NCBI GenBank assembly: GCA_947460235.1
Contig: CANHGK010000007.1
Location: 1-64,000 of the forward strand
Direction of reading: 5' to 3'
From: Paenibacillaceae bacterium
Lineage (GTDB): Bacteria; Bacillota; Bacilli; Paenibacillales; CANHGK01
DNA: 64,000 nucleotides
The first letter of the stretch is position 1. Every line of letters starts with the position of its first letter. The notes below the pieces were generated by a model. That model was not told the origin of the DNA, did not search any database, and saw nothing but the letters and a program-made list of their open reading frames with translations. Positions 3,620 through 54,775 of this stretch are shown here, piece by piece. A program made the position numbers and the translations under genes.

Positions 3620-4056
3620 GGTTAAAAAGTTTGACAGACAATCGCTGGTCGTGTGGGAGACTGCACAACGAGAGGAAAGTCCGGGCTCCACAAGGCAGGG
3701 TGCTGGATAACATCCAGTCAGCGCGAGTTGAAGGAAAGTGCCACAGAAATGGACCGCCGATGATCCGGTTTGTACCGGATACAGGCAAGGGTGGAACCGG
3801 GGTGTAAGAGACCCCGAAGCAAACTGGCGACTGTTTGCTTGGTAAACCCCATCTGGAGCAAGACCAAAGGTAACGCCGGTTCGGCCTCACGGTGCGGACA
3901 ATCCTAGCCTGGGATGCGTTGGGTAGGTCGCTGGAGCGCGTCAGTAATGGCGGGCCTAGATAGATGATTGTCGCTTCAATCTGTGGGAGGAAGCTTTCGC
4001 GCGACCGTAATACCACAGGAAGATACAGAACCCGGCTTATGGCAAACTTTTTGACC
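3620..4056 (+). ncRNA. rnpB: RNase P RNA, bacterial type A (ancestral) architecture
   Basis: gagaggaaagtccgggctccacaaggcagggtgctggataac, accgccgatgatccgg, ggcaagggtgg...ggggtgtaagagacccc, ggtaaaccccatctggagcaag, ggcctagatagatgattgtcgc and acagaacccggcttat; P1 formed by ggttaaaaagtttg / caaactttttgacc. Confidence 0.95.
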
Positions 4057-6030: not shown

Positions 6031-6201
6031 GAAATCCCTCCGTTGATCAATTAAAGTAGCTATCGGAGAGTATGCCGCAATCCACTCAAAATCATGCCAT
6101 AAAAATTTGTTCACATCAAAATTGACTGTACCTGTTTGTTTTTTGATGTGATAGAATTAAACGTATGTAGCAGCTGTTCATCTTTGGAAGGGGGACTTAA
6201 C

Positions 6202-8722: not shown

Positions 8723-8857
8723 ATAGGAATGCAGGATAATTTATGATAAAAACAGAAAATTAAGAAGAATCAGTTTAAATTTTTCTTGAGTACGGTAAAA
8801 AAACTTGTCGTCCGTCGATAATGTCTTTGCGTTACCGATTGAAAGGGGATGTTGGCC

Positions 8858-11800
8858 ATGTTTCAAACCTTCACAAACAAGCGTCAAATTCAAATCGGAG
8901 TGTATTTAGCGATCGTTGTATGTATACTTTTCTATTTGTCATTGTTACCGCAAACGGTGCATGCCGGTGCTGCGGCACTGCGCTCGGAAACGATTGCCCA
9001 GCCGAATGGGGATAAATTCAAGGCGAGTACATATGGAGACGAATGGGTAAACTGGACAACTACTCAAACCGGAGATGTCGTCATTAAAAATACGGATGGA
9101 TATTGGAATTACGGAAAAGTGGTTGGAGATGAATTAAAACCCAGTTCGAAACGTTTTGATCCAGATACGGCGAATGTCAAAATTAAACCATACAGTTTTT
9201 CATTGAAACAAGCAGATGCGGCGGGCTTTGCAAAAAGTGCTTGGGCATCAAAAGCGGCGGCAAGAAGCGCGATGGCAGGTCCTTCCAAAGCTACCTCATC
9301 TAACTCCTCCACCACTTCTTCAGAGGTAGTAAGCGCAGGGGCAAGTACGCCATTTTTAGGGAATGTCAAAATGTTGACGATTTTAGTTGAATTTAATGAC
9401 GCAAAAATTAAAAATACGGATGCGACATGGAACGCAAAAATGTTCTCCTCAACTGGGAATAGCGTTCGTAATTACTATAATGAAACTTCAAATGGTAAGT
9501 TAATTTTGATGCCTGCTGAAGAAACAAACGGCATTTCAAATGATGGGATTGTAAAAGTTTGGATCAAGACGAACCATCCAAATCCAACTTCGACTGGCGC
9601 AATCAATCAACAAATTGTAAAAGATGCATTAACGTTGGCGGATCAATATGTGAATTTTTCTTCGTTTGATACGAACCACGATGGGACGCTAACGAATAAT
9701 GAACTAGATCTGGTTACGATTGTCGCTGGATATGAAATGTCCTACGATTCGTCGACGCCGCATGTTTGGGCGCACAAATGGTCTTTATATGGCAGTACAT
9801 TAGCGCAATATGATGGAGTTTATGTTGCAGGTAATGATACGAATTCAAGTTATGCTCAATTTGGCGAGTTTCATGGATTGGTTAATACGGCATCCATTGG
9901 GGTCATTTGTCATGAGTTGGGTCATACGCTGGGGTTGCCGGATTTGTATGATACGACTGGGAAATCTGCCGGGATTGGCATTAGTAGTATTATGGCTTAT
10001 GGTAGTTGGAATACGATTCCGGGCGGTCAATTAGGAGATACGCCGGATCATTTTGATGCGTGGTCCAAACAACAATTGGGTTTTGTGACACCGGAAGTTA
10101 TCGCGACTTCTGTGAATCAAACGTATACGTTGAAATCAATTAGCACCGGCCAATACAATGCCATTCGGATTAATACATCCTTACCTTATGAATATTTCTT
10201 ATTAGAGAATCGTCAATTCGAAAAATATGATCGGAGTCTAAATCCGCGCGTAGACAAAGGCGGTATTGCAATCTGGCATATTGATGAATCGAAGTCTGGA
10301 AATCAGACCGTTACACAAAAACTCGTGGATTTGATGGAAGCAAATGAAGGAATCATCGGATACAGTGAAAATGATACAAGTCAGGCGTATTCACCGTCGA
10401 GACCTTATTATTCCGTTGGAAATGTGACCGATGCGAATCAAACTTCCAAGCCGAACACGAATTTTAATTCAAATTACCCATCTGGGTTATCAATTTCTGT
10501 AAAAAGCGCTCCATCGCCTTCCATGGATGTACTTATTAATTATAAAATTAATGATTTATCACCACCATCGCAACCAATGGATTTAATTGCAAGTGCGAAT
10601 GGTGCAACTGGTGTTACTTTGAGTTGGTCTCCTTCTTATGATAATTATGGTGTAACAGGGTACAGTATATTCCAAGACTTAAGTCCGATTGGCACCAGTT
10701 CAACAAGTTCATTCTCACTATCTGGTTTGACACCTGGTCAAAGTTATTCATTTAGTGTTCAAGGTTATGATGCAGCTGGAAATAAATCTCCGATGTCAAC
10801 ATCGGTTTCGATCACACTGCAAGTCGTGTCATCACCACCGCTGTTAATTTACTATAAATCGTCATTTACAGGTGCGCCATATATGCATTACCGTCTTACT
10901 GGCGGAACGTGGACGACCACTCCGGGGATATTAATGAATGGATCAGATGTAAGTGGTTATTCCAGTCTAATGATTGATCCAATGACAGCACCATCGATCG
11001 AGGCAGCATTTACGAATGGTGATGGTGTGACGTGGGATAATAAAGGTGGAACTAACTATATTATTCCTGTTGGGAGTGCTGCTGTAACGATTGAAAACAA
11101 TCAAATGAAAATCGGAAAACCGGTTATTGTTACTACTGTGATTGATACATCAGCACCGACAGTTCCGACAACAATTGTTTCATTAGCAAAAACGGATACA
11201 ACCGTAAATTTGAGTTGGACAGCATCTACAGATGATATTGGCGTTACCGGTTATGAAATTTCTCGCAATGGTGTGAAAGTCGGAAATAGTACAGCGACAA
11301 CGTATAATGACGCCGGATTAATTGCGAATACGTCTTACGGTTATACGGTTCGAGCGTTCGATGCATCGGGAAATTATTCTGCGGCGAGTACTGCACTTTC
11401 TGTGATTACGAATCCAAAGATCGTGACGACTGTCAATTCAGTTACGGTTTATTACAAACGCACAATCACGACAGGTACACAATACATTCACTGGAGACCC
11501 GTTGGTGGAACATGGACAACAGCACCTGGACTTGCAATGTCAGTTGCAGAAGTGAATGGTTATGCAAAAGCGACACTTTCAATCGGTACTGCAACATCTA
11601 TTGAAGCAGCATTTAATATCAATGGGAGTTGGGATAGTAAAGGTGGGTTAAATTATTCAATTCCTATGGGGATTCAGACGGTCGAAGGTGGAATTGTTAA
11701 AGCAGGCGCACCAGCAGGCGTTACAATCGATTCCATCGCACCAACGGTTCCAACGAATGTAACATCTCCGTCGAAAACCACTACATCGGTTGGATTAAGT

Positions 11801-14068
11801 TGGACAGTATCCACGGATAATCTTGGTGTAACAGGTTATAACATATTGCGCAATGGGACGAAAGTGGGCACATCGACAACCGCTTCGTATACCGATACCG
11901 CTTTACTCGCGAATACGGCCTATAGTTATACAATTGTAGCCTTTGATGCAGCGAACAACTTATCTTCAGCAAGTACGCCGTTGATTGTTACAACAAATCC
12001 TGCAACACCGGTCATTAATAATACCTTAACGATATATTACAAACGCATAGTGACAACGGGAAATCAATACATGCACTGGCATCCAGTTGGTGGGGCATGG
12101 ACGACGGCTCCTGGACTTGCGATGACTCCGGCAGAAGTGGCAGGATATGCAAAATCTACGGTTTCCATCGGAAGTGCAACATCAATCGAGGCTGCATTTA
12201 CCGTTAATGGTTCTACATGGGACAACAAAGGTGGGTCTAACTATTTCATTTCAATGGGGACACAAACCGTAGAAAACGGTGTAGTCAAATCGGGCGTTCC
12301 TGTAGTAGTCATTGCGGATACAACGGCTCCAAGTATCCCTTCGAATGTGACATCACCATCAAAAACGGATACTACGGTTGGATTGAGTTGGAATGCATCG
12401 ACAGATAATATTGCAGTCACAGGGTACAATGTATTGCGCAATGGAACGAAAGTTGGAACAACGGTAACGACCGCGTATTCCGATAATGGATTAGTTGCAA
12501 ACACAGCTTATAGTTACACGATTCAAGCATTTGATGCAGCAAATAACTTATCTTCAGCAAGTATGCCGTTGACTGTTACAACGAATCTTGCAACACCGGT
12601 CATTAATAATTCGCTTACAATTTACTATAAACAATCAATATCAACAGGAAATCAATACATGCACTGGCATCCAGTTGGTGGGACATGGACGACGGCTCCT
12701 GGACTTGCGATGACACCCGCAGAAGTGGCAGGTTATGCAAAAACTACGGTTTCAATCGGAAGTGCAACGTCAATCGAAGCCGCATTTACAAAGGATGGGA
12801 AAGTTTGGGATAATAAAAACGGTGCGAATTATTTGATTCCAATGGGAATACAGACGATCGATAATGGTTTGATCAAAATAGGTGTACCTACATCAGTTAT
12901 TGCAGACACGGTTGCACCAAGTATCCCTTCTAATGTGACATCACCATCAAAAACGGATACTACGGTTGGATTGAGTTGGAATGCATCGACAGATAATATT
13001 GGTGTAACGGGTTACAACATATTGCGCAATGGAACGAAAATTGGAACAACGGTAACGACCGCGTATTCCGATAATGGATTAGTTGCAAACACAGCTTATA
13101 GTTACACGATTCAAGCATTTGATGCATCGAACAATGCGTCATTAGCAAGCGCGGCCATTAGCATAACGACGAATCCATCGACTCCTGTCACCAATAACAC
13201 AATCACCATTTACTACAAACGCACTGGATTAAGTGGTACGCAATATTTGCACTGGCGTCCAACAGGAGGGAACTGGACGGTAGCCCCGGGGCTTGCAATG
13301 ACTGCTTCTGACGTTTCCGGTTACGACAAAGTGACGATCTCAATTGGAGCGGCAACTACAATTGAAGCTGCATTCAATTGTAATGGTGTTTGGGATAATA
13401 AAGGTGGGCCAAATTATACGATTCCAATGGGTACTCAAACAGTCGAGAATAGTGCAATAAAAACTGGTGCGCCTACGGTGACTGTTACCCCGACAGATAC
13501 GACTGCTCCAAGCATACCGGTGAATTTGATTTCTCAATCTAAAACGGACAAATCGGTGCAATTGGTTTGGACTGCTTCGACTGATAATATAGGGGTTGTT
13601 GGTTATGAGATATATCGAAGTGGCACAAAAATTGGAACATCATCAACAACGTCGTACTCTGATAGTGGTCTGACGGCAAATACAGCGTATAGCTACACGG
13701 TAAAAGCTTATGATGCTGCGGCGAACTATTCGGCGACCAGTTCGGCACTGAGTGTGACGACGAATCCGGTAATTGCAGCGGTGAACACGGTCACGGTATA
13801 TTACAAACGCAAAGTGGCAACGGGCACGCAAAACATCCATTACCGTCCGATTGGCGGAACTTGGACGGCTGCACCTGGTGTTCCAATGACGAATGATTTG
13901 AATGGATTTGCAAAAATCACAGTTACAATTGGTTCAGCTTCTGGGATTGAAGCTGCTTTTAACGCAAGCAATACAAATTGGGATTCAAATAATAACATGA
14001 ACTACAAAACGGGTACTGGTGACTGGACGATTGATAACGGGGTTTTAAAAGCCGGAAAGCCGTATTAA
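8858..14068 (+). CDS. Secreted M6 family (immune inhibitor A-like) metalloprotease with six C-terminal FN3 + CBM25-like (starch-binding) module pairs
   Basis: Signal peptide; zinc motif HELGHTLGLPDLYD; alternating FN3 (e.g. TDTTVGLSWNASTDNIGVTGYNILRNGTKIGTT...) and CBM25-like units (YYKR..TGxQYMHWxPVGGTWTTAPGLAMTxAEVxGYAKxTVSIGSATSIEAAF...WDNKGG.NY.I). Start at 8858 favoured over 8849 by RBS spacing (aaagggg). Confidence 0.9.
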   Translation: MFQTFTNKRQIQIGVYLAIVVCILFYLSLLPQTVHAGAAALRSETIAQPNGDKFKASTYGDEWVNWTTTQTGDVVIKNTDGYWNYGKVVGDELKPSSKRFDPDTANVKIKPYSFSLKQADAAGFAKSAWASKAAARSAMAGPSKATSSNSSTTSSEVVSAGASTPFLGNVKMLTILVEFNDAKIKNTDATWNAKMFSSTGNSVRNYYNETSNGKLILMPAEETNGISNDGIVKVWIKTNHPNPTSTGAINQQIVKDALTLADQYVNFSSFDTNHDGTLTNNELDLVTIVAGYEMSYDSSTPHVWAHKWSLYGSTLAQYDGVYVAGNDTNSSYAQFGEFHGLVNTASIGVICHELGHTLGLPDLYDTTGKSAGIGISSIMAYGSWNTIPGGQLGDTPDHFDAWSKQQLGFVTPEVIATSVNQTYTLKSISTGQYNAIRINTSLPYEYFLLENRQFEKYDRSLNPRVDKGGIAIWHIDESKSGNQTVTQKLVDLMEANEGIIGYSENDTSQAYSPSRPYYSVGNVTDANQTSKPNTNFNSNYPSGLSISVKSAPSPSMDVLINYKINDLSPPSQPMDLIASANGATGVTLSWSPSYDNYGVTGYSIFQDLSPIGTSSTSSFSLSGLTPGQSYSFSVQGYDAAGNKSPMSTSVSITLQVVSSPPLLIYYKSSFTGAPYMHYRLTGGTWTTTPGILMNGSDVSGYSSLMIDPMTAPSIEAAFTNGDGVTWDNKGGTNYIIPVGSAAVTIENNQMKIGKPVIVTTVIDTSAPTVPTTIVSLAKTDTTVNLSWTASTDDIGVTGYEISRNGVKVGNSTATTYNDAGLIANTSYGYTVRAFDASGNYSAASTALSVITNPKIVTTVNSVTVYYKRTITTGTQYIHWRPVGGTWTTAPGLAMSVAEVNGYAKATLSIGTATSIEAAFNINGSWDSKGGLNYSIPMGIQTVEGGIVKAGAPAGVTIDSIAPTVPTNVTSPSKTTTSVGLSWTVSTDNLGVTGYNILRNGTKVGTSTTASYTDTALLANTAYSYTIVAFDAANNLSSASTPLIVTTNPATPVINNTLTIYYKRIVTTGNQYMHWHPVGGAWTTAPGLAMTPAEVAGYAKSTVSIGSATSIEAAFTVNGSTWDNKGGSNYFISMGTQTVENGVVKSGVPVVVIADTTAPSIPSNVTSPSKTDTTVGLSWNASTDNIAVTGYNVLRNGTKVGTTVTTAYSDNGLVANTAYSYTIQAFDAANNLSSASMPLTVTTNLATPVINNSLTIYYKQSISTGNQYMHWHPVGGTWTTAPGLAMTPAEVAGYAKTTVSIGSATSIEAAFTKDGKVWDNKNGANYLIPMGIQTIDNGLIKIGVPTSVIADTVAPSIPSNVTSPSKTDTTVGLSWNASTDNIGVTGYNILRNGTKIGTTVTTAYSDNGLVANTAYSYTIQAFDASNNASLASAAISITTNPSTPVTNNTITIYYKRTGLSGTQYLHWRPTGGNWTVAPGLAMTASDVSGYDKVTISIGAATTIEAAFNCNGVWDNKGGPNYTIPMGTQTVENSAIKTGAPTVTVTPTDTTAPSIPVNLISQSKTDKSVQLVWTASTDNIGVVGYEIYRSGTKIGTSSTTSYSDSGLTANTAYSYTVKAYDAAANYSATSSALSVTTNPVIAAVNTVTVYYKRKVATGTQNIHYRPIGGTWTAAPGVPMTNDLNGFAKITVTIGSASGIEAAFNASNTNWDSNNNMNYKTGTGDWTIDNGVLKAGKPY
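10558..14065 (+). repeat. Six tandem FN3-CBM25 coding repeats, period about 580-590 nt
   Basis: Six alternations of FN3 and CBM25-like segments; units at about 12331-12535 and 12919-13123 are nearly identical at DNA level with a 588-nt offset. Confidence 0.88.
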
Positions 14069-30867: not shown

Positions 30868-30922
30868 ATTTGACTTTTAATCACCTGAGAAGTACAGTAA
30901 ATGAAAATCAAATCAATTTTTG

Positions 30923-31013
30923 TCACTAGGGGAGCTATAGAATAGCTGAGACTGGACGTCGTCGTCCTAAACCCTTCGAACCTGATCTGGGTGATTCCAG
31001 CGGAGGGAAGTGC
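30923..31013 (+). ncRNA. TPP riboswitch (THI element)
   Basis: ctaggggagc...gctgagactgg...aaacccttcgaacctgatctgggtgattccagcggagggaagtg matches the THI-box consensus. Confidence 0.97.
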
Positions 31014-31035
31014 TTACTCGTAATCAATTACGATC

Positions 31036-37952: not shown

Positions 37953-40900
37953 ATGATTGCCAAATTGTTTTTGAAATCCCGTAAGTGGACATCAATCAGT
38001 CTTGTGATGATGTTGATTGTCCAAATCATGGCAGCATGGATTACATCAGTGGCAGCATTTGCAGTTACATCTTCAATTAGTATGGCGAGCTTTACGGAAC
38101 AACCAGGAGGTAAGGCTGCTTGGACAATTCCAGGTGATTTTAACAGCTGGGACAAGACAGCTGGGTTCAAATTGAAACATTTAGCAAATGGTGATTTTTA
38201 TGGTTATTCTGCTAATTTAACGGCTGGAACTTATGGATTCAAATTCGTGTTAAATGACGATTGGAATCAATCCATTGGTGATGGCGCAAACAATTTTAGT
38301 TTGACATTAGCGAACGATGGGATTGTAAATTTCTACATCAAGGGGAATTCAACGGGGGATGCACAAATCCGCGTTGAAGGAGCAACAGTGGCGGGGATTA
38401 CTTCTTATTCACCTACTAGAGATTCATCCAATTGGCCTCGCCTGGTCGGTAGTACAGCTGGTTTACTTGGTGTAACAGCTGATGGTGGTTGGTCACCGAG
38501 TACATCTGATTTATATTTCATAGATTATAATTTTGATAACACAGTATATATGCTTCAACGAGATTTATCTGTTGGATCATCAGACGCAAAGGTCGTTTTT
38601 GGCTCGAGTTGGAGTGATCCGAACTATGGGGTTGGAAGTGGTAATTTAACAGTTGACGTAACCGATGCTGCAGTACCGGTTGTGTTGAAAATTGATGCGT
38701 CTGCGCAGACACCGGAATTGTCACAAGTAACATCTCCTACACAAAATGTTGTTGGCGTTGATATGACTAGTTTTCCAGTACAACCGGGCGGGATTGCTAC
38801 ATGGACGATTCCAGGAGATTTTAACAGTTGGGATAAAACAGATGGATTCAAATTGAAACATTTATCAAATGGTGATTTTTATGGATATTCTGCTGATTTG
38901 AAAGCTGGAACTTATGGATTCAAGTTTGTTTTAAATGATGATTGGAATCAATCGATTGGTAATGGTTCAAATAACTTTAGTTTGACATTAGCGAATGATG
39001 GAATTGTGAATTTCTACATTAAGGGTAATACAACGGGTAATGCAGTAATCCGAGTTGAAGGAACGACGGTAGCAGGGATTACTTCGTATACACAAGCTCG
39101 AAATTTGTCAAATTGGCCTCGACTTGTTGGGGGAACTGCAGGATTACTAGGTGTAACAGCAGATGGTGGCTGGTCACCAAGTACGTCTGATTTGTATTTT
39201 GTCGATTATAATTTTGATGGTTCAGTATATTATTTACAGCGTAATTTGCCAGTGGGTTCCTCAGATGCAAAGGTTGTATTTGGTTCGAGTTGGAGTGACC
39301 CGAACTATGGGGTTGGAAGTGGAAATTTATCCGTTAACGTAACCGACGCCACAGAACCAGTTGTATTGAAAATTGATGCGTTCGCAGAAACAAAACAATT
39401 ATCACAACGTACAGTTGGTCAAATTGATCCTGTTGCAGATGTTATTGCCGAACAACCAGGCGGATTGGTTAAGTGGACAATACCAGGTGATTTTAACAGT
39501 TGGAATGAATCGACAGGTTTCAAAATGAAACATATCGCCAATGGTGATTATTATGAGTACTCAACCGTGTTAGACCCTGGTACGTATTCTTTTGCATTTG
39601 TCATGAATGGAAGTTGGGATAATAAGGTATCAAACAATGGATTAAATTATAGTATGACCGTATCTAAACAATCCAAAGTGAATTTTTATGTGCGTGGAAC
39701 GAAACCTGATAATACGGTCGTTCGGGTAACTGGTGCGACGGTTCCAGCGATTCCTGTTTATGTCCCATCGCGAGATGAATCAAATTTGCCAAGACTTGTT
39801 GGTTCAATTGCTAAACCACTGGGAGTTACAGCGAATGACGGCTGGTCGCCGAGCACTTCGGAATTGTATTTTGTAGATTACAACTTTGATGGTTCTGTGT
39901 ACCTTTTACAACGTGATGTACCGAAAGGTAATTATGATGCAAAAGTAACACTAGGCACAAATTGGGATGAAAATTACGGTGGCAACGGACCAGGAGATCC
40001 AAACTTAAGTTTAAATCTGATTGATCCGTCTAATCGACTATTGTTTACTTTTGATGCTTCACAACCGGAAGGTCAACGGAAATTAGAGGCTAAACTACTT
40101 ACGGACGGCTTTGATGGCGTGGTTTCTGCTGGTTCTGTTTATTACGATAGCCGCAACGAATTGTTTAAAACACCGTTTGGAGCGCTCAAACAAGCGCAAC
40201 AAGATTTAACATTACGAATCCAAGCGGATGAAAAAGATGTTCAACGTGCAAGGGTTGAATTGATGCATCCGGATCAGTCGACAACAACTTATGATATGCA
40301 TTTTGCATTCAGAAAAGCTAACAAAGATTACTTTGAAGTGACAATTCCAAAAGCTGAGTTTGATCAATATGGTATTTGGGGTTATAAGTTTGTATTAACA
40401 GATGGCCAGTCAAAAGTAGAGTATGGTGAAGATAACAAACGCGGAGGAAGCGGGAATGCAACCGCGGACGATGCGCTTACGTATGATTTGACGGTATATA
40501 AATCGGATTTCCAACCTCCGACTTGGTTGCAAAGTGCACGCATTTATCAAATTTTCCCGGATCGTTTCTTCGATGGTGACAAGTCCAATAACCGTGCAAA
40601 AGTTGTTGATGGATCACGCGGATATCGTAATGAAGGGGATATGAACAACTATCGCAAGAGCCAAAAAATAGAGTATTTTGATGGTGGAGTTGCAAATGAT
40701 CCTGTTCCAGATCAAGTGTGGGGAACTACTGCGGATTATCCAGAAAATCCACAACGTAGTTATCCAGAAAATAAGGCGTACTTTCCAGATGCGAAAAGTG
40801 ATGGAGAATGGTCTAATGAATTTTATGGTGGGGACTTACAAGGGATAACTCAAAAACTGAATTATATTAAATCTCTTGGATTTAATACAATCTACTTAAA

Positions 40901-43900
40901 TCCAGTCGAGTGGTCAGAATCGAACCATAAATATAATGCGACTGACTATAATCATGTGGATCCAATGTTTGCTCAACCAGTATACAATACACCTGGAGAA
41001 CCGAAATCTGGATTGAATTACGCAGCAACAAGGATTGCATCAGATAAGGTGTTTACAGACTTAGCCAAAGCAGCAGATGAAGTTGGCATTCGTTTGATCG
41101 CAGACGGGGTATTTAATCACATCGGTGATGATTCCATTTACTTTGACCGTTATGAAAAATATCCGGAAATCGGTGCGTATGAATATTGGGCAAAAGTGTT
41201 TGATCGGATGAAATCAGCTAGTTTAACCCAAACTGCTTCAGAACAGGCAATTAAAAACGAATTTAAAAATAAAGTGAATCCGACGACTGGTCAAAAGTAT
41301 ATAGATGAGGATTTCAAATATACTTCCATGTTTACGATCACTAATGATTATCGTTTCTGGGATCAAAAGAAATTGTTCTCGTCGTATAATTTTAATGGTT
41401 GGTATGGCAACGATTCATTGCCTGAATTTGATTCCAAATCCCAAGACCAGAATGAACTAGAAGATATTCCAGGGATGAATGAATGGAATAACAAAGTTTA
41501 TCGTGATCTTGTAATCGGTTATGACCTTAATGGTAAAACAGATCAACAAAAATTAAGTGCAGTACAAAATACAGCTTCACAACGTTGGTTGTGGATGGGG
41601 GCAAATGCTTGGCGTTTAGACGCGGCGCGTGATGTATCCTCAGGTACGTGGAAGCAGTTCCGAAAAGCGGTGAAATCTGTCGCTGGGTTGGATAACGTCA
41701 ATGGCAAAACCATTGAAGAACCAGCCTTGATTGCGGAGGATTGGGGAAATGCGAGTGATTTGTTGCTTGGAGATCAATTCGATACTGTCATGAACTATCG
41801 TTTTATTGGAGCCATTGAACCGTTTTTAACGGGAATTAATGATGCAACTGCTGCTGATACAGCGGAAAGTTTAGAGTCAATTCGAGAAGATTATCCGCCT
41901 TATGTATGGAAATCATTATTAAATTTACTTGATTCTCATGACACAACACGATTTATTACGCGAATGGATGATTATAAATTAAATCAAGAATCATTAAAAG
42001 TAGCACCTGAACCAAAAAATGACGCATATCAACGCGCAGCACTTGGAATTATTATGCAATACGCTTACCCTGGTGCACCAATGGTTTATTACGGTGATGA
42101 AGTTGGTCTTCCAGGAACAAAAGATCCGGATTCAAGACGCTTCTTCCCTTGGTCAAAAATTCAAGGTTCTAATAACTCCTATTCTGCAACAGGAGCAGGT
42201 TCTGAACTGTTTACTTTGTATAAAAAGCTTGGACAAGCACGTTCAGATCATAGTGTGTTTGCAGATGGCGATGTGAAAATTTTATATGCTGAAGGCGACG
42301 TAATTGTGATTGGACGTCGAAATGCGACCGAAAGCGCAATTGTTGCGCTAAATCGTGCCGATACTTCGAAAAAAGTTACTTTAAATCTAAAGGGTTATAT
42401 TGCTAATGGAATAACATTTAGTGACGCATTAGATAATGTATCAGATGTCTCTGCTACAAATGGAAGTATTGAATTGACCATTCCAGCTGTAAAAGGTGTC
42501 GTCTTAATCAGTAATGCTCAACTCAATGTTCCACAAATTCCGCAAAACGTTGTTGAGAATGTTGGACAAAATGGTGTGGATTTAACGTGGGATGTTGTAT
42601 CTTCAACGTCTTATGATGTATATCGCAGTGAGTGGCCAGGTGAAATCGGTTCTAAAATTGGTACCATTGCCGCTGGCGATAATGGAGCATATACGGATTC
42701 AGTAGTTTCAAAAGGTCAGCACTACTATTACCAAATCGTTGCACGAAAAGATTCTGGTGAAACATCTGCTCCATCAAGTCAATTGGATGTATATGTACCA
42801 TGGACCGTTAGTTCGGTTTCAGCACCAGATATAACGGGTGCTACTGTTGATCTAGATAATGGAACACAGACGGGAGCGATCAAGGTAACAATTGACGTTC
42901 CGGGGGTGACCAACGATTCGAATCTTGCAGACCTAAAAGCCAACGTGATTCTAGGAGATTTGGAAATACTTTTAAATGGTGAAATTATTCAAAGATCACC
43001 TCTGAAATATTTGGAAGATTCTTCTGGTAAAAAAGTGTATTATGCTACATTCCAGCCGCTTTCTGCAGATACATTCGATGTTCGCGCACGCGTTTCGACG
43101 GATTTTGGAAATCACTATACTACTTCCAGTTCCACGCAAATTACGATCGCAAAAACATCAAGTGATACGACTGCACCTGATGCTGTAACGCTTAGTGCAA
43201 TCAATGAGCAATCCAATCAGGCGCATTTGAATTGGAGTGCAGCAACTCAAGATGTGAAATTACTTGTGATTCAACGTAAAAAACAAAGTGAACAAAGTTA
43301 TGAAAATATTGCATTCTTACAATCAGATGCAATTCAGTATGCTGATGTAAATGTGCACAATGGCGTTACCTATGAATATCGTGTTGTTGCCTATGATCAA
43401 GCGATGAATGTTGCAAATTCGAATACGGTGTCCGTAACACCACAAATGGCGATCATTGATGTTACCTTGCATTTACACATGAATGATGATTTAGGTGATA
43501 CGGATAATGTCAACGTCTCAGGTACATTTAACAATTGGTCGACAACATCATCGATTTTGCAAGTTCCATCTGGTGCAACGACTCGAGAAACTTTAGAATA
43601 TAAATTCAAAATGTTCTCAGGTAAACAAATCCAGTACAAATACAACCGAGGTGACTGGAACACCGAAGCATTGACTTCAAATGTCGCTGAAGATATTAAT
43701 TCACATAAAAACTTTGCATTCTCCACAACTGGAGACAATATGCAAGTAACGATTATGGATCAAGGCGATCATAAAATGCTTGTTGATGATTATGTTCTTC
43801 GCTGGGTTGATTTACCAGTAATTGTGTATTTACCGAAAAAACAAGCAGTCTCAAGATTTAAAGATACAACGCAAGAAGTCACTTATGAAACGACTTCCGA

Positions 43901-45002
43901 TACGACTGATCTGAAATTAAAAGTTCCATTTGGAGTTGATGTGAAAGTAAACAATCAACTCGTAGGTTCATCTGAACATGATGGTGTCGGAAACCTTTGG
44001 ATTAAAAACATTAGTACTGCCGTTAAAACGACGACCTTGAACGTTGCGGTTGCTCCTAGTGCTGAAACTCTTGCACTTTCTTGGTTTCCAAAAGTTGGAG
44101 AAGATTTTACGAAGAATGTAGCGAAATCGACACAAAATTTCAAGGTTACGATCACGAATCCAAATTATACTGCAACAAAACTTGAATCGTTCAAATTATC
44201 AAATTCTATTATTGATAACAATGATGCAGGGATTAATGTGAGTTGGAATTCGGTTGCAGATCAAAGCATAACCGAATATCGTATTTATGTTGATGGTGTC
44301 GCAGTTGCAAAAGTTCCAGCGAACAAAACAAGTTATGAAATAACTGGTCTTTTACCAGACACTGTTTATAAAGTTACCATGGGAACTGGAAATGGGTCAG
44401 GTAAATTCTTGTTGTCAGATTCCAAAAACTTCCGTACCGCGGAGTTGCCAGTGGCTATACCGGTGCCAACATCGGTGCCAACACTAGTTCCGACTCAAGT
44501 GCCAGTATCAACACCAACGCCAATGGTTACAGCTACACCGGTTCCAACAGCATCACCAACTACGGCAGCATCAGCAACGCCAATACCAATCGTAGTTGTA
44601 CCAACACCAACAATTGTAGTACCAATTACGACACCGACCGTAATTTCTGGTTCAACACCATCAAGTACACAACCAACGGTGATTTTTAACCCAATTATCT
44701 TAACTCCAGTTAAGATTACAAATGCAACAGCAACAGCAACTATTCCTGAGTTTGATAAGACGGGTAGTTACAAGCAAACGCTTAAAATTGAAGCAAATTC
44801 GATTCAGGCAACTTTCTTGGTAGGTAATATTGATAAGCGATTGAAAGTGTCGTTCGTAGTACCAAAAAACCAACGTCGAGCAATCGAATCATTTAATTAC
44901 ACGATTTTCAAAAATAGCACCTTAAAAGTTTGGGTAAAATTAAAACAATCATACAAATATCCGATTGCCATTGATTTGGTATTTGGAATCGTTGAGAAAT
45001 AA
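37953..45002 (+). CDS. Secreted multidomain amylopullulanase (GH13) with N-terminal X25-like repeats, FN3, CBM20-like module, Pro/Thr linker and unique C-terminal domain
   Basis: Signal peptide; TIPGDFNSWDKT..FKLKHLANGDFYGYSA and VTADGGWSPSTSDLYF(V/I)DYNFD repeats x3; GH13 motifs ARIYQIFPDRFFDGD, GVFNHIGDDSIYFD, ANAWRLDAARDV, ALIAEDWGNAS, LLDSHDTTRF; VNVSGTFNNWSTTSSILQ starch-binding module; PVPTSVPTLVPTQVPVSTPTP linker. Confidence 0.93.
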   Translation: MIAKLFLKSRKWTSISLVMMLIVQIMAAWITSVAAFAVTSSISMASFTEQPGGKAAWTIPGDFNSWDKTAGFKLKHLANGDFYGYSANLTAGTYGFKFVLNDDWNQSIGDGANNFSLTLANDGIVNFYIKGNSTGDAQIRVEGATVAGITSYSPTRDSSNWPRLVGSTAGLLGVTADGGWSPSTSDLYFIDYNFDNTVYMLQRDLSVGSSDAKVVFGSSWSDPNYGVGSGNLTVDVTDAAVPVVLKIDASAQTPELSQVTSPTQNVVGVDMTSFPVQPGGIATWTIPGDFNSWDKTDGFKLKHLSNGDFYGYSADLKAGTYGFKFVLNDDWNQSIGNGSNNFSLTLANDGIVNFYIKGNTTGNAVIRVEGTTVAGITSYTQARNLSNWPRLVGGTAGLLGVTADGGWSPSTSDLYFVDYNFDGSVYYLQRNLPVGSSDAKVVFGSSWSDPNYGVGSGNLSVNVTDATEPVVLKIDAFAETKQLSQRTVGQIDPVADVIAEQPGGLVKWTIPGDFNSWNESTGFKMKHIANGDYYEYSTVLDPGTYSFAFVMNGSWDNKVSNNGLNYSMTVSKQSKVNFYVRGTKPDNTVVRVTGATVPAIPVYVPSRDESNLPRLVGSIAKPLGVTANDGWSPSTSELYFVDYNFDGSVYLLQRDVPKGNYDAKVTLGTNWDENYGGNGPGDPNLSLNLIDPSNRLLFTFDASQPEGQRKLEAKLLTDGFDGVVSAGSVYYDSRNELFKTPFGALKQAQQDLTLRIQADEKDVQRARVELMHPDQSTTTYDMHFAFRKANKDYFEVTIPKAEFDQYGIWGYKFVLTDGQSKVEYGEDNKRGGSGNATADDALTYDLTVYKSDFQPPTWLQSARIYQIFPDRFFDGDKSNNRAKVVDGSRGYRNEGDMNNYRKSQKIEYFDGGVANDPVPDQVWGTTADYPENPQRSYPENKAYFPDAKSDGEWSNEFYGGDLQGITQKLNYIKSLGFNTIYLNPVEWSESNHKYNATDYNHVDPMFAQPVYNTPGEPKSGLNYAATRIASDKVFTDLAKAADEVGIRLIADGVFNHIGDDSIYFDRYEKYPEIGAYEYWAKVFDRMKSASLTQTASEQAIKNEFKNKVNPTTGQKYIDEDFKYTSMFTITNDYRFWDQKKLFSSYNFNGWYGNDSLPEFDSKSQDQNELEDIPGMNEWNNKVYRDLVIGYDLNGKTDQQKLSAVQNTASQRWLWMGANAWRLDAARDVSSGTWKQFRKAVKSVAGLDNVNGKTIEEPALIAEDWGNASDLLLGDQFDTVMNYRFIGAIEPFLTGINDATAADTAESLESIREDYPPYVWKSLLNLLDSHDTTRFITRMDDYKLNQESLKVAPEPKNDAYQRAALGIIMQYAYPGAPMVYYGDEVGLPGTKDPDSRRFFPWSKIQGSNNSYSATGAGSELFTLYKKLGQARSDHSVFADGDVKILYAEGDVIVIGRRNATESAIVALNRADTSKKVTLNLKGYIANGITFSDALDNVSDVSATNGSIELTIPAVKGVVLISNAQLNVPQIPQNVVENVGQNGVDLTWDVVSSTSYDVYRSEWPGEIGSKIGTIAAGDNGAYTDSVVSKGQHYYYQIVARKDSGETSAPSSQLDVYVPWTVSSVSAPDITGATVDLDNGTQTGAIKVTIDVPGVTNDSNLADLKANVILGDLEILLNGEIIQRSPLKYLEDSSGKKVYYATFQPLSADTFDVRARVSTDFGNHYTTSSSTQITIAKTSSDTTAPDAVTLSAINEQSNQAHLNWSAATQDVKLLVIQRKKQSEQSYENIAFLQSDAIQYADVNVHNGVTYEYRVVAYDQAMNVANSNTVSVTPQMAIIDVTLHLHMNDDLGDTDNVNVSGTFNNWSTTSSILQVPSGATTRETLEYKFKMFSGKQIQYKYNRGDWNTEALTSNVAEDINSHKNFAFSTTGDNMQVTIMDQGDHKMLVDDYVLRWVDLPVIVYLPKKQAVSRFKDTTQEVTYETTSDTTDLKLKVPFGVDVKVNNQLVGSSEHDGVGNLWIKNISTAVKTTTLNVAVAPSAETLALSWFPKVGEDFTKNVAKSTQNFKVTITNPNYTATKLESFKLSNSIIDNNDAGINVSWNSVADQSITEYRIYVDGVAVAKVPANKTSYEITGLLPDTVYKVTMGTGNGSGKFLLSDSKNFRTAELPVAIPVPTSVPTLVPTQVPVSTPTPMVTATPVPTASPTTAASATPIPIVVVPTPTIVVPITTPTVISGSTPSSTQPTVIFNPIILTPVKITNATATATIPEFDKTGSYKQTLKIEANSIQATFLVGNIDKRLKVSFVVPKNQRRAIESFNYTIFKNSTLKVWVKLKQSYKYPIAIDLVFGIVEK
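38094..39400 (+). repeat. Two near-identical tandem X25-type coding repeats (about 681 nt period), with a more diverged third copy to about 40070
   Basis: gggttcaaattgaaacatttagcaaatggtgatttttatgg... at about 38163 recurs at about 38844 with few substitutions. Confidence 0.8.
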
Positions 45003-45131: not shown

Positions 45132-47117
45132 ATGGCGGTTCAGCGTGACATGCGACAGTACATCGATTATGGGGATGTTAATGTAACCAATGGAATTTCT
45201 GTTTTTGATTGGTCATTTGATGACCATTTTGCATATGATGGTGATGATTTAGGTATTACGTATTCAGAGCAATCTACGAAATTTGCGCTTTGGGCACCAA
45301 CGGCTTCTGAAGCCAATGTTATTTTGTATGAGCGTTGGAATGGTCCGCGCGATCAGATTATCTCGATGGAGCGTACAGACCAAGGTGTTTGGCGTTATGA
45401 ATACGATGGTGATTTACGAGGGAAATTATACACGTTCAGTGTAAAAATAGGTAAGCAATGGAACGAAGCCGCAGATCCTTATGCGAAGGCCGTAGCGGTT
45501 AACGGTGATCGTGGAGTCATTCTTGATTTAAGTTCTACGAATCCTGAACGTTGGAATGACGAGAAACCACCACTTCATAAGGCAACTGATGCCATTATTT
45601 ATGAAGCTTCAATCCGTGATTTTACCGCACATCCATCAAGTGGTGTGGATCATCCTGGTACATTTGTGGGTGCTTGTCAAGCGGGCACAACAACACCAGG
45701 TGGCTTCACGTCGGGGATGGATTATTTGAAAGAGTTAGGCATTACGCATGTTCAATTTTTACCGATGTATGATTTTTGTGAACGGAGTGTAGATGAAACT
45801 CGTCCAGTTCAAGGTCAATATAACTGGGGTTATGATCCGAAAAACTATAATGTCCCAGAAGGTTCTTATTCAACCAATGCGTTTGATCCAATTTGTCGGA
45901 TTCGTGAAATGAAACAAATGATTCAGACACTTCACGATAATGGATTGCGTGTAATTATGGACGTTGTATATAACCATGTTTATGATATTTTTGAGATTAA
46001 TTTTAATAAATTGGTGCCAGGCTATTATTTCCGCTACCATCCTCATGATCGTTCGGTAAGCAATGGATCTGGTTGTGGTAACGATACGGCGAGCGAACGC
46101 AAAATGATGCGTAAATTCATGGTCGAATCTGTCGTATATTGGGTTAAAGAATATCATTTGGATGGATTCCGCTTTGATTTGATGGGTCTTCACGATATCG
46201 AGACAATGATAATGATTCGTCAAAAATTAGATGAAATTGATCCGAATTTAATTATTCTCGGCGAAGGCTGGAATTTGAATACGGCACTCATGTTCGATCA
46301 GCGAGCAGTTCAAATGAATGCGTTCCAGATGCCGCGGATCGCACATTTTAATGATCGGATTCGTGATGCGTTAAAAGGTAGCGTATTCTTTAATGGAGAT
46401 GCGGGATTCATCAACGGGAAACCGTATTTAGAACGTGAAATCGAGAAGGGGATTGCGGCATCGATCCATTTTGATCTTGAGCGTTATGGTTTTGCGAATG
46501 AACCGGTGCAGACGATTACGTATGTCGAGGCGCATGATAACAACACATTATGGGATAAGCTATCGATGACGAATGGTTATCATAGTGAGGAAGTTCGTCG
46601 TGCCATGCAACGGATGAGTATGGCGATTATTTTAACTTCACAAGGGATTCCATTCCTACATGCTGGGATGGAGTTTATGCGTACTAAGTATGGTGAGGAA
46701 AATAGTTATAAATCATCCATCGAAATCAATCAGATGGATTGGGAACGTCGTGGTTGGTTTGATTTTGACGTGCAATATGTTAGAGAACTAATTAAAATCC
46801 GCAAAGAGCATCCTGCATTCCGGATGCCAACGGCAAAAATGATTCGTCAACATTTACATTTTGAACCAGCACCGATGCGTGCAGTTGCCTTTACGCTTCG
46901 TGGTCATGCGAATAATGACCCAAGCCTAAATATCTACGTTGCACATAATGCCAATGGACATGAAGAGTCGCTTGAAATTCCGAATTTGGGTGAGTGGAAA
47001 TCATTGTTTGGGGATGTGCAGTGGATTCGTCATAAACATGCAGCGGCGGACGATGCGATGCAACACGCGAGAATTGCACCGCATACGACTGTTATTCTGA
47101 CTTGTGATGAAGAGTAA
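45132..47117 (+). CDS. pulA: Type I pullulanase (GH13_14), no signal peptide
   Basis: YNWGYDPKNYNVPEGSYSTN signature, VIMDVVYNHVYDI, DGFRFDLMGLHDIETM, IILGEGWNLNT, YVEAHDNNTLWDKL; N-terminal CBM48-like TKFALWAPTASEANVILY. Confidence 0.96.
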   Translation: MAVQRDMRQYIDYGDVNVTNGISVFDWSFDDHFAYDGDDLGITYSEQSTKFALWAPTASEANVILYERWNGPRDQIISMERTDQGVWRYEYDGDLRGKLYTFSVKIGKQWNEAADPYAKAVAVNGDRGVILDLSSTNPERWNDEKPPLHKATDAIIYEASIRDFTAHPSSGVDHPGTFVGACQAGTTTPGGFTSGMDYLKELGITHVQFLPMYDFCERSVDETRPVQGQYNWGYDPKNYNVPEGSYSTNAFDPICRIREMKQMIQTLHDNGLRVIMDVVYNHVYDIFEINFNKLVPGYYFRYHPHDRSVSNGSGCGNDTASERKMMRKFMVESVVYWVKEYHLDGFRFDLMGLHDIETMIMIRQKLDEIDPNLIILGEGWNLNTALMFDQRAVQMNAFQMPRIAHFNDRIRDALKGSVFFNGDAGFINGKPYLEREIEKGIAASIHFDLERYGFANEPVQTITYVEAHDNNTLWDKLSMTNGYHSEEVRRAMQRMSMAIILTSQGIPFLHAGMEFMRTKYGEENSYKSSIEINQMDWERRGWFDFDVQYVRELIKIRKEHPAFRMPTAKMIRQHLHFEPAPMRAVAFTLRGHANNDPSLNIYVAHNANGHEESLEIPNLGEWKSLFGDVQWIRHKHAAADDAMQHARIAPHTTVILTCDEE

Positions 47118-51016: not shown

Positions 51017-54000
51017 ATGCGACACACGAAAATTTGGATGATGATTAAAATTGTACTTTCCATGATCTTGATAATGACAAGTGTATTTCCGGCGTTCGGA
51101 TTTGCTGCTACCGTTACATCAGGACAAGCTTCTTCAATAACATTATGGGTGAAATGGGATGTGAATGCTACGTATTTGCATTATCGTCTACCCACTCAAT
51201 CATGGGCAAAGTCTAGTGTTTTACCTTTAATGAACACGACAATTCCTGGGTTTAAAGGTGCGACGATTCAATTGGGCCGGCTAAAAAATGCGGAAATAAT
51301 AGTAACGAACTCTAAAGCAATACCTAATTATAAGAAGTCAACACGATATACATTGAATGGCGGTACGTACACGATTTCGAAAAAAGGATTCGTAAAAGGA
51401 ATGCCTATTAATCATAAGGCGATTGTGTTTTTTCCGGATAATGAGTTTAATCAAACGTATCTTCAATATAAAATTGAAGGTTCCTCATGGATTTCTTATC
51501 CAGGAAAAATTATGGCACCAAGCACAATTCCAGGTTATTTGACGAAAACGATTTCAATGGGTGAAGCAAAATCATTACTTGTACGCATAAATGATGGGAC
51601 GTTAGTTAATGGAGGGGATACTGAAGCTGTTTATCAGATGACTGATTCAGTTTATACAATCCTTAACGGGAAGATCATTCCTGGTGCACCAAATGATACG
51701 GAACCACCCGTTATCAGTCCAATTGTCGTGCCGACAAATACACCGATGCCGGTTGCAACAATTACACCAGTTGTTTCATCGGGGAATAATTCGATCAATA
51801 CTGCAACTCCAATTAGTACACCAACGCCTGTACCAACAGCATATGTAGATGTCACAGCACCAACAATTCCAAGCAATGTTCAATTGTCAATTTTGGCAAG
51901 TGGCGCAGTAGGTATTACATGGAATCTTTCAACGGATCTTTCCGGAATTGATGCGTATATCATTTATCGTAATGATGTGAAACAACAAGTCGTTTCTGGT
52001 AATTCATTTGTAGATAAAGGGTTTTCACCAAATAACACATACATTTATAAAGTGCAAGCGATCGATAAAGCAAATAATTTATCGTCATTAAGTGAAGGTG
52101 TGAAATATCAGGCTCCTGCAGACATTTCTCCACCAACGGCGCCACTATTAAATTTGACATCAAGTTCGGAGACGAAAGTGTCGATCGGATGGACAGCATC
52201 TGAAGATAATTATGGTGTGGCTGTTTATGAAGTATATCGAGATGGCATTAAAGTTGCAGAATCGAAAGATCTTGTATTTAGTGAGAGTGGTTTGGCACCT
52301 AAACAATCGGTTAAATATTCGATTCGATCTGTAGACGTTGCAGGGAATCGCTCACTTTTTTCAAATGAAATTATCGCGGTAACGCCAGAAGACAAAGAAC
52401 CACCGACTGCTCCCACTTCATTAACAGCAATTGGACGTTCGGACAATTCCATCACGGTTTTATGGGGTCAGGCAACTGATAATGTTCAAGTGAAATTGTA
52501 CGAAGTGTTGCGTAATAATGTTGTAGTCAATACAACGACATCAACATTTTTTACAGATAAAGGACTTAAACCAAATGAAGTTTATCAATACAATGTAAAA
52601 GCAATCGATAGCTCAGGAAATCGTTCGTTGAAAGCAGTTGAATTGTTGACATCCACAACTGATGATAAAGTGGCTCCGACGGCACCTACTGTGACCCAAT
52701 TGCTAAGTAAGAATGATTCGGCTGTCAAAATTGGTTGGAACCCAGGTAGTGATAATAATGTGGTTTCTGGTTATCAAATTTTCCGAAATGGTAAACAAAT
52801 ATCTGTCGTAGGTTCAGTCAATAATTTTGAAGATACAAGTGTTTCATCCGGTACCGAATATACGTATACCGTTCGGTCGGTTGATGCGAGCGGAAATGTT
52901 TCTGCAGATAGTGTTGTTTTGAAAGTAACAACCGATCTTCCGGTTACGATTTATTACAAATCCACCGGAACAACGTATGTAAGTTACGGTTATGTTTCAA
53001 GTGGAACAACAGCATCCCAATGGACGGTTTCACCTGGAGTAAAATTAGACGAATCTGAATATATCGGTTACAAAAAAATCGATATTAAATTAGGTTCATA
53101 CAGTTCGATTCAAGCGGCCTTTAACAATGGAGATGGAATTTGGGATAACAATAACTATAAAAACTATTCGTTCACGAAAGGGCTATATACGATTGTTGAT
53201 AAAGTGATTGTAACGGGTAAACCAGTAGCGTCATTACGACCTACGACGACACCAGTTGTTACATCAACTCCACTTGCAACAGGAACACCATATGTGAAAC
53301 CGTCTTCGAGTCCGAATGGTACCGACACAGAGAAACCATCAGTTCCATTGAATTTAAAAGTATTAAATCGCACGGCAACAACAATTCAATTTGGTTGGTC
53401 TGCATCTTCAGATAATGTTGAAGTGACCAAATATGATGTCTATGAGAATGGTGTCTTTGTTGCAAGTGTTTCAGCTGGAATTCAACTGATCAAACAAATT
53501 AATTTAAGCCCGGATTCCATTTATGCCTATTCCGTTGTTGCGATTGATAAAGCAGGTAATCGTTCTGCCGCTTCTGCAACATTAACAACATCGACGACAA
53601 ATCAAATGGTTTCTGTATTTTATAACACGTCGATTACTCAACCGATGTTTCATTATCGCTTGGAAGGTTCAAATCAATGGACGATTCAACCAGGAATTCC
53701 GATGAATCAAACAAATTTAAAAGATTGGTTTAAGGTTGATATTGATTTGGCTGCTGCACAAAATGTTGCAGAAGCTGCATTTTATGTGGGTATGGGTTCA
53801 TTGCCATGGGATAATAATGGAAACAAAAATTATCGTTTTGAGCCTGGAACGTGGTCGGTTTCCAAAGGAGTAATGACAAAAGGAACACCTGCAGGTTATG
53901 CAACACTTACACCATTGCCTACTGCTACACCGACCATTAGTCCGTTAACGACACCGGTTATTGCGAAACAAGCAACGGTTTACTATTACTCCAATGAGTC

Positions 54001-54670
54001 GGTTGCAAACTTGCATTACACATTGGATGGAATTACGTGGACAACGCTACCTGGATTAGAAATGATAAAATCTGAGTTTGCGGATTATTACAAGAAAACG
54101 ATAACCATCGGGAGTGCCAAAAACGCACAAGTAGCATTCAATAATGGTAAAAGTGTTTGGAATAGTAATGGAAATAAAAACTATCTGATTTCAGAAGGAG
54201 TCTGGACTGTAAATAATGAGAACCAATTGTTGGCAGGAACTCCGGTTCCAGCAGTTGGTGTAACGACTTCTCCCAATACGATAGCAACACCATTGCCAAC
54301 GCCAATTGTAGTAACGGAAACACCGCTACCAACGTCAAGCATTACTCCGGTAACAACGACAACACCAGTTCCAGCGCAAGTGGTTGTAACCTTAAAAGTG
54401 AATTATGATACACAAGGTTTGGGCGATATTTGGTGTTATTTCAGAAATGAAGTCGGGGCATGGTCCAACACAAAAATGACGATGGATTCAGGAAACAATT
54501 GGACGATCTCTGAATTGTTAACACCTGGTTTGACGTATCAATATAAATATTTTAAGCTAATTGGTACGGATAAAGCATGGGAATCAATTGATTCGAAAAA
54601 TCATGTACTCATTCCTACTACGGCAAATATTCAAACACAAATAGACACATGGGGATTAAACTTAAAATAA
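51017..54670 (+). CDS. Secreted multi-modular starch-binding-like protein (CBM25-like x5, FN3 x5, C-terminal CBM20-like), no recognisable catalytic domain
   Basis: Signal peptide MRHTKIWMMIKIVLSMILIMTSVFPAFGFA; CBM25-like units e.g. LPVTIYYKSTGTTYVSYGY...QAAFNNGDGIWDNNNYKNYSFTKGLYTI and QATVYYYSNESVANLHYTLDGITWTTLPGLEM; FN3 units; TPTPVPT linkers; C-terminal VVVTLKVNYDTQGLGDIWCYF...YQYKYFKL. Confidence 0.85.
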   Translation: MRHTKIWMMIKIVLSMILIMTSVFPAFGFAATVTSGQASSITLWVKWDVNATYLHYRLPTQSWAKSSVLPLMNTTIPGFKGATIQLGRLKNAEIIVTNSKAIPNYKKSTRYTLNGGTYTISKKGFVKGMPINHKAIVFFPDNEFNQTYLQYKIEGSSWISYPGKIMAPSTIPGYLTKTISMGEAKSLLVRINDGTLVNGGDTEAVYQMTDSVYTILNGKIIPGAPNDTEPPVISPIVVPTNTPMPVATITPVVSSGNNSINTATPISTPTPVPTAYVDVTAPTIPSNVQLSILASGAVGITWNLSTDLSGIDAYIIYRNDVKQQVVSGNSFVDKGFSPNNTYIYKVQAIDKANNLSSLSEGVKYQAPADISPPTAPLLNLTSSSETKVSIGWTASEDNYGVAVYEVYRDGIKVAESKDLVFSESGLAPKQSVKYSIRSVDVAGNRSLFSNEIIAVTPEDKEPPTAPTSLTAIGRSDNSITVLWGQATDNVQVKLYEVLRNNVVVNTTTSTFFTDKGLKPNEVYQYNVKAIDSSGNRSLKAVELLTSTTDDKVAPTAPTVTQLLSKNDSAVKIGWNPGSDNNVVSGYQIFRNGKQISVVGSVNNFEDTSVSSGTEYTYTVRSVDASGNVSADSVVLKVTTDLPVTIYYKSTGTTYVSYGYVSSGTTASQWTVSPGVKLDESEYIGYKKIDIKLGSYSSIQAAFNNGDGIWDNNNYKNYSFTKGLYTIVDKVIVTGKPVASLRPTTTPVVTSTPLATGTPYVKPSSSPNGTDTEKPSVPLNLKVLNRTATTIQFGWSASSDNVEVTKYDVYENGVFVASVSAGIQLIKQINLSPDSIYAYSVVAIDKAGNRSAASATLTTSTTNQMVSVFYNTSITQPMFHYRLEGSNQWTIQPGIPMNQTNLKDWFKVDIDLAAAQNVAEAAFYVGMGSLPWDNNGNKNYRFEPGTWSVSKGVMTKGTPAGYATLTPLPTATPTISPLTTPVIAKQATVYYYSNESVANLHYTLDGITWTTLPGLEMIKSEFADYYKKTITIGSAKNAQVAFNNGKSVWNSNGNKNYLISEGVWTVNNENQLLAGTPVPAVGVTTSPNTIATPLPTPIVVTETPLPTSSITPVTTTTPVPAQVVVTLKVNYDTQGLGDIWCYFRNEVGAWSNTKMTMDSGNNWTISELLTPGLTYQYKYFKLIGTDKAWESIDSKNHVLIPTTANIQTQIDTWGLNLK

Positions 54671-54673
54671 AAA

Positions 54674-54775
54674 AACCTGTTGCGGAATTCTCAACAGGTT
54701 GGGGACTGACTCCATGACTTGAGACAGAGGTCAGTCCCTTGGCCGTCCGGTTTAATCCCGGGCGGTTTAATTTTT
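54674..54775. repeat. Triple-hairpin REP-like/terminator element
   Basis: aacctgttg/caacaggtt (54674-54700), gggactgac/gtcagtccc (54702-54738), ccgtccgg/ccgggcgg (54743-54765) followed by tttaattttt. Confidence 0.6.

Follow-up and report, generated by a model that had tools for sequence, protein, structure and literature searches.

What does a secreted protein made of starch-binding modules do when it carries no enzyme, and how is it kept near the cell that made it? The question is raised by an ORF in the window (the whole stretch of DNA analysed, 64,000 nucleotides from a draft genome of a Paenibacillaceae bacterium), which we describe as the gene of a non-catalytic starch-binding protein of 1217 aa. 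The module order had been read beforehand from the translation, and Pfam, an iterated local profile and structure models together bear out every element of that original prediction. Behind a signal peptide come two divergent CBM25 units, a Thr/Pro-rich linker, four FN3 domains, CBM25, linker, FN3, CBM25, linker, CBM25, linker and a C-terminus with the CBM20 fold. The features are:

51017-54670, + strand: non-catalytic starch-binding protein; ORF of 1217 aa beginning with ATG (Pfam scan)
51017-51109, + strand: signal peptide of the Sec type, with RHTK in the n-region, a hydrophobic core (maximum at residues 6-30) and AFGFA^A
51128-51382, + strand: CBM25-like unit 1, divergent; 24.1 bits, under the cut-off; HWP at the three binding positions, the second Trp alone being replaced; modelled with the CBM25 fold
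51416-51676, + strand: CBM25 unit 2, divergent; 38.3 bits; Gln-Trp-Asn at the three binding positions; CBM25 fold in the tandem model
51677-51859, + strand: Thr/Pro-rich linker, by composition
51860-52912, + strand: four FN3 domains (51860-52093, 52133-52363, 52403-52630, 52676-52912), by Pfam and local profile
52943-53212, + strand: CBM25 unit 3; 77.4 bits; both Trp kept (Ser-Trp-Trp); match to 2c3v at E 4.7e-20
53213-53335, + strand: Thr/Pro-rich linker, by composition
53336-53575, + strand: FN3 domain 5, by local profile
53603-53878, + strand: CBM25 unit 4; 54.7 bits; His-Trp-Trp intact
53879-53965, + strand: Thr/Pro-rich linker, by composition
53966-54226, + strand: CBM25 unit 5; 72.1 bits; His-Trp-Trp intact
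54227-54355, + strand: Thr/Pro-rich linker, by composition
54368-54667, + strand: CBM20-fold C-terminal domain; no Pfam match of its own, 37% identity to a prepilin CBM20, predicted fold
54741-54767, + strand: terminator-like stem-loop 3′ of the gene, a consensus match only

The CBM25 profile (PF03423, curated Pfam cut-off 27.3 bits) matches the protein over five stretches with 217.7 bits (E 2.9e-65), and fn3 matches with 77.8 bits. By the local profile, CBM25 occupies residues 50-120, 137-215, 643-726, 865-948 and 987-1066, and FN3 residues 282-359, 373-449, 463-538, 554-632 and 774-853. The N-terminal pair had been called divergent, and its scores of 24.1 bits (against the cut-off of 27.3) and 38.3 bits bear this out. 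Pro, Thr and Ser make up 44-49% of the four linkers.

No catalytic family scored over its cut-off when the protein was searched against Pfam up to E = 1. An RGI_lyase beta-sheet match overlaps the FN3 domains and represents FN3-like similarity, and an NCBIfam match to "exoglucanase CbhB", which falls on FN3, was rejected because its 251 bits are far under the cut-off, 1950. Gaps of at least 50 residues in the domain coverage are limited to one Thr/Pro-rich linker and to the C-terminal linker with its CBM20-like domain, and the stretches left without domain assignment are too small for a catalytic domain. A hidden catalytic domain is thus ruled out by Pfam to E = 1, NCBIfam and domain coverage, in agreement with the earlier reading that found no GH13 or other enzymatic motif; the protein lacks the catalytic domain that defines a glycoside hydrolase.

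Structure prediction, proposed earlier as a check, assigned the N-terminal tandem to the CBM25/CBM26 fold and the C-terminus to the CBM20 fold; each model was built from a six-sequence alignment, and their fine detail is not to be trusted. The tandem model (pLDDT 88.5) matches the Bacillus halodurans CBM25 structure 2c3w with a TM score of 0.82 on the target and also matches 6b15; the structures matched include that of the paired CBM26 in Eubacterium rectale Amy13K. The C-terminal domain gave no match to CBM20 (PF00686) in the Pfam search, yet it aligns over 95 aa at 37% identity (E 2e-9) to the Pfam-recognised CBM20 of a prepilin encoded in the same genome. Its model (pLDDT 81.6) retrieves CBM20-bearing structures throughout the top list, including the isolated CBM20 domains 8x8k, 1cqy and 1kul. 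The CBM20-like character read for this end of the protein is therefore upheld by alignment and predicted fold, though without a Pfam match.

The CBM25 and CBM20 families bind alpha-1,4-glucans. In the B. halodurans CBM25, maltotetraose is held by W34, W74, H26, D81 and N76 (2C3V numbering) (PMC4625611). We compared the H26, W34 and W74 positions (H-W-W) in an alignment of 100 domains, 99 from the host genome plus the 2C3V reference; H-W-W is present in 72. It is complete in units 4 and 5 of our protein, while unit 3 has S-W-W with both Trp retained; unit 1 has H-W-P and unit 2 Q-W-N, the second platform Trp being gone from both. From these kept and lost residues units 3, 4 and 5 look binding-competent and the N-terminal pair doubtful; the pair may bind weakly or bind another ligand.

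Secretion, as had been predicted, is indicated by the Sec-type signal peptide with no later membrane segment, the only hydrophobic segment being at the N-terminus. The signal lacks a lipobox Cys, and the sole Cys of the protein is near the C-terminus. The sequence contains neither LPXTG nor a second hydrophobic or membrane segment, and the Pfam scan gave no match to SLH or dockerin on the protein (LPXTG, SLH and dockerin had been noted as absent at first reading); it is not a sortase- or SLH-anchored surface protein. The host genome, a 2.72-Mb draft in 42 contigs that is 99% complete, yielded no sortase match and no cohesin match. Sortase anchoring was rejected, since there is no LPXTG on the protein and no sortase match in the genome, and a cohesin-type scaffold was rejected since cohesins were not found; the bacterium thus appears unable to use sortase for anchoring or to build an amylosome of the Ruminococcus bromii (Sas) type, which takes a dockerin on the protein and cohesins in the genome. 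Anchors of other kinds occur elsewhere in the genome, which has 37 SLH matches: two CBM25 proteins carry SLH, and a pair of 800-aa CBM25/FN3 proteins begins with a membrane segment.

We found 98 CBM25 matches in 40 ORFs of the host genome (G000), reading the window and the stretches around CBM25 matches (L029-L060). CBM25 is present in 90 of 300 genomes of the same order, none with more than 11 besides G000 and a relative, G002, which has 38 when scored in full; the next-highest count among 399 genomes of the phylum is 7. No more than 11-15 candidates of any one genome are scored in these wide searches, which makes counts near that limit lower bounds, but only G000 and G002 reached it with every scored candidate matching. 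About 20 of the carriers are alpha-glucanases: 13 GH13 (two cut by contig ends), three GH15, one GH31 and three GH57-like enzymes that are probably GH119. The other enzymatic carriers are one sugar dehydrogenase, two M6 and one S8 peptidases and two phosphoesterases, and 14 ORFs have no catalytic match; of these, two are truncated at contig ends and two contain long stretches without assignment. The matches extend over about ten protein classes, as in high-copy targeting of the CBM37 kind, and this genome-wide expansion is more unusual than the single protein. H-W-W is kept in 24 of the 25 CBM25 domains on peptidases, phosphoesterases and the dehydrogenase; CBM25 looks functional on the enzymes and the prepilin. 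The module is not on every secreted enzyme, being absent from the subtilase at window 4606-6114. GH43, the hemicellulase family searched, was not found in the host genome, in line with starch specialisation.

Several of these carriers merit individual mention. The three peptidases (window 8849-14068, L057:3757-8385, L034:6096-11318) have four to six CBM25 each, with all binding residues intact. Three each are present in the two proteins of the phosphoesterase family and in the dehydrogenase, which is glucose/sorbosone dehydrogenase-like (L053:6296-8584, - strand; L056:3932-6238, + strand; L045:5601-9770, - strand). The three GH57-like, probably GH119, proteins (L032, L035, L051) share about 64-65% mutual identity in the N-terminal 800 aa, and one bears SLH. 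At L050:6122-10840 (+ strand), a 1572-aa protein with no catalytic match combines 13 CBM25, most with altered binding residues, with a CBM35-like domain. Two more CBM25 proteins (L055:5890-9561, + strand; L047:4644-6929, - strand) have stretches of about 950 and 240 aa without a Pfam family, possibly new enzymes or binding domains. The prepilin-like protein of type IV (L041:12584-14137, - strand; TIGR02532 over cut-off) carries FN3, CBM25 and CBM20, and from these modules it could be a starch-binding pilus component; its neighbors are a second prepilin-like ORF and a PilX-like ORF (L041:14165-14836, - strand; L041:14994-17033, + strand), recognised by eye with no Pfam match. At C3:150512-152807 the genome encodes two T2SSE-family ATPases side by side, with the sizes of PilB and PilT. 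Our search found no literature on peptidases that carry CBM25 or on a type IV pilin that binds starch, which is weak evidence as subscription papers fell outside it.

Module identity and retained binding residues give good support to a non-catalytic secreted alpha-glucan binder. We consider it reasonably probable that this binder is multivalent and that it links granules or dextrins to other CBM25 proteins, most likely acting from the starch side because it has no anchor. Up to six starch-binding modules would take part: the three CBM25 with both platform Trp, the one CBM20-fold domain and the two divergent CBM25. The FN3 domains and flexible Thr/Pro linkers would space these modules, so that one molecule could grip several alpha-glucan chains with high avidity. 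Unanchored, the protein would most likely coat or bridge granules and dextrins, and bridging would join starch to the two SLH-anchored CBM25 proteins, the membrane-anchored pair and the prepilin, the starch chains themselves being the shared scaffold. The genome encodes 40 CBM25 proteins, this one included, which suggests how it might stay near the cell with no anchor of its own, through anchored CBM25 proteins gripping the same polymer; growth on raw starch could benefit. The role is also favored by an enzyme-free CBM26/FN3/CBM25 protein of G002 encoded among amylase genes, by starch genes near our gene in the window and by the precedent of Sas20 (all described below). Against it, two of the five CBM25 lack the second platform Trp, and the gene is outside an amylase operon.

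The same lack of LPXTG, second membrane segment and SLH on the protein, and of sortase and cohesin matches in the genome, would also suit an agent that works free at the granule surface, binding starch, loosening or disrupting its packing and speeding secreted amylases, with no part in cell attachment. The many apparently soluble CBM25 amylases of the host genome favor such an agent, but anchored CBM25 proteins are expected on the same granule and pure solution behavior is not the simplest outcome; we regard the free-agent reading as unlikely.

Another origin and role is suggested by Paenibacillus plantiphilus and P. oenotherae (L061/L062), in which a 1.7-kaa protein consists of a signal peptide, two CBM25, two FN3, a further module, three FN3, CBM25, FN3 and a GH13-like catalytic part, and so resembles the N-terminal two thirds of the 1217-aa protein. 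The latter could then be a multi-module GH13 enzyme reduced to its binding half, which has survived either as a mere relic or because it competes for substrate. Against this, the nearest relatives of its single modules are scattered over many proteins of the host genome, G002 and Paenibacillus; the N-terminal tandem resembles the Paenibacillus tandem (20% identity) no more than it does others (21-23%); the C-terminus is CBM25-CBM25-CBM20 rather than a truncated GH13; and the reading frame is intact, with both platform Trp kept in three CBM25. At the module level there is no support for a simple origin from a single amylase whose GH13 was lost, and the relic account is quite improbable. Because the module neighbors are so scattered, the protein looks like a mosaic drawn from a shared module pool rather than an amylase minus one domain. 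The Paenibacillus proteins and MaAmyA and MaAmyB of Microbacterium aurum (PMC5093618) share its modules and FN3 spacers, but they carry GH13 and it does not; in MaAmyA, CBM25 is required for granular-starch activity and FN3 domains are thought to be spacers (PMC5093618).

A search for homologs of the same architecture, also proposed at the outset, found no full-length ortholog: none of 60 relatives covers the whole protein, and conservation is thus unusable as evidence of function. The best match among relatives covers residues 276-730 at 38% in a 2485-aa ORF of G002. Another, residues 366-726 at 42%, is in a 1235-aa protein of G002 (L070:3214-6921, - strand) that likewise has an N-terminal hydrophobic signal-like segment, an FN3 array, CBM25 and no enzyme. 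There, however, CBM26 takes the place of the N-terminal CBM25 pair and a copper-amine-oxidase-N-like C-terminus that of CBM20, and the gene belongs to an alpha-amylase cluster, its companions there encoding one SLH protein and two of GH13. A scan of GTDB r220 for an ortholog yielded nothing beyond amylases of Paenibacillus and weak matches in Bifidobacterium and Prevotellaceae; records of the host genome were possibly outside that scan.

Starch specialists keep binders near the cell through cohesin-dockerin pairs (R. bromii) or as outer-membrane lipoproteins (Bacteroides); SusE and SusF of Bacteroides are surface lipoproteins with X25-type modules, beside the SusC/D importer. The protein had been proposed as a Gram-positive analog of SusE/F or a scaffold. 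The first idea holds in part, both being non-catalytic multivalent starch binders that accompany amylases, but here we found an ordinary Sec signal, no lipobox, no anchor and, with a desaturase and dnaE as neighbors, no SusC/D-type gene alongside. The second, taken in the cohesin-dockerin sense, fails for want of any cohesin found in the genome. A precedent for a secreted, enzyme-free starch binder is Sas20 of the R. bromii amylosome, in which a Thr/Pro linker connects two binding domains and whose dockerin attaches to cohesin 6 of the sortase-anchored scaffoldin Sca5 (PMC9112005); our host genome has no cohesin or sortase match, and the modules are CBM25 and CBM20 rather than X25-type. The protein is like Sas20 or SusE/F as a non-catalytic starch binder, but by the features tested it belongs to neither group.

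The nearest parallel at the level of the whole system is CBM37 of Ruminococcus albus, the host's use of CBM25 resembling that strategy, transposed to starch, rather than the amylosome or SusE/F. CBM37 is unique to R. albus, whose genomes contain 51-102 copies each, both on enzymes and on proteins without catalytic function; it has many polysaccharides as ligands and reportedly also binds the cell wall (PMC4081043). Both are cases of one CBM family multiplied (51-102 against 98 matches) over many enzyme classes and non-catalytic proteins, with few or no cohesins; the difference is that CBM25 is a widespread starch module whereas CBM37 is species-specific and reportedly cell-wall-binding. That CBM37 reportedly attaches enzymes to the cell wall (PMC4081043), and that CBM25 is also on peptidases, phosphoesterases and a prepilin as expected of a general retention tag, would accommodate a cross-linker of self-made alpha-glucan in capsule or matrix, acting in biofilm or at the cell surface and unrelated to plant starch, a reading that we hold highly improbable; the roughly 20 CBM25 alpha-glucanases, expected to degrade such a matrix, count against it.

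For the starch-binding role preferred here, the expansion suggests another way of keeping starch binders near the cell, one module copied about a hundred times, as if much of the bacterium's secreted protein were addressed to starch. Tentatively, CBM25 may be a general address label on amylases, peptidases, phosphoesterases, a sugar dehydrogenase and a prepilin, with multivalent non-catalytic proteins cross-linking these on starch in a cohesin-free, sortase-free, polymer-scaffolded machine that dismantles protein-embedded granules; we hold this as possible. On ecological grounds, protein and lipid, phospholipid included, could be cleared from around granules by the CBM25 peptidases and phosphoesterases, and the prepilin could find granules. 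Such a route, if shown, would explain granular-starch specialisation in a small-genome bacterium of the Paenibacillus order, and multivalent starch binders could be taken from it ready-made. With the gene described here, what non-catalytic CBM25 proteins do becomes directly testable.

The neighborhood of the gene was also examined. It is situated between genes for a fatty-acid desaturase (- strand) and dnaE (+ strand), with no amylase operon. No regulatory RNA was found upstream, and the stem-loop downstream is consistent with a single-gene transcript. A comparison with a plasmid collection gave no record with 80% coverage. Other starch genes are nearby within the window: that of an amylopullulanase-like protein of 2349 aa with six X25 matches (37953-45002), followed by that of a pullulanase-type GH13 (45132-47117). 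The window also contains a class A RNase P RNA (3626-4054) and a TPP riboswitch (30918-31025) upstream of the ORF at 31085.
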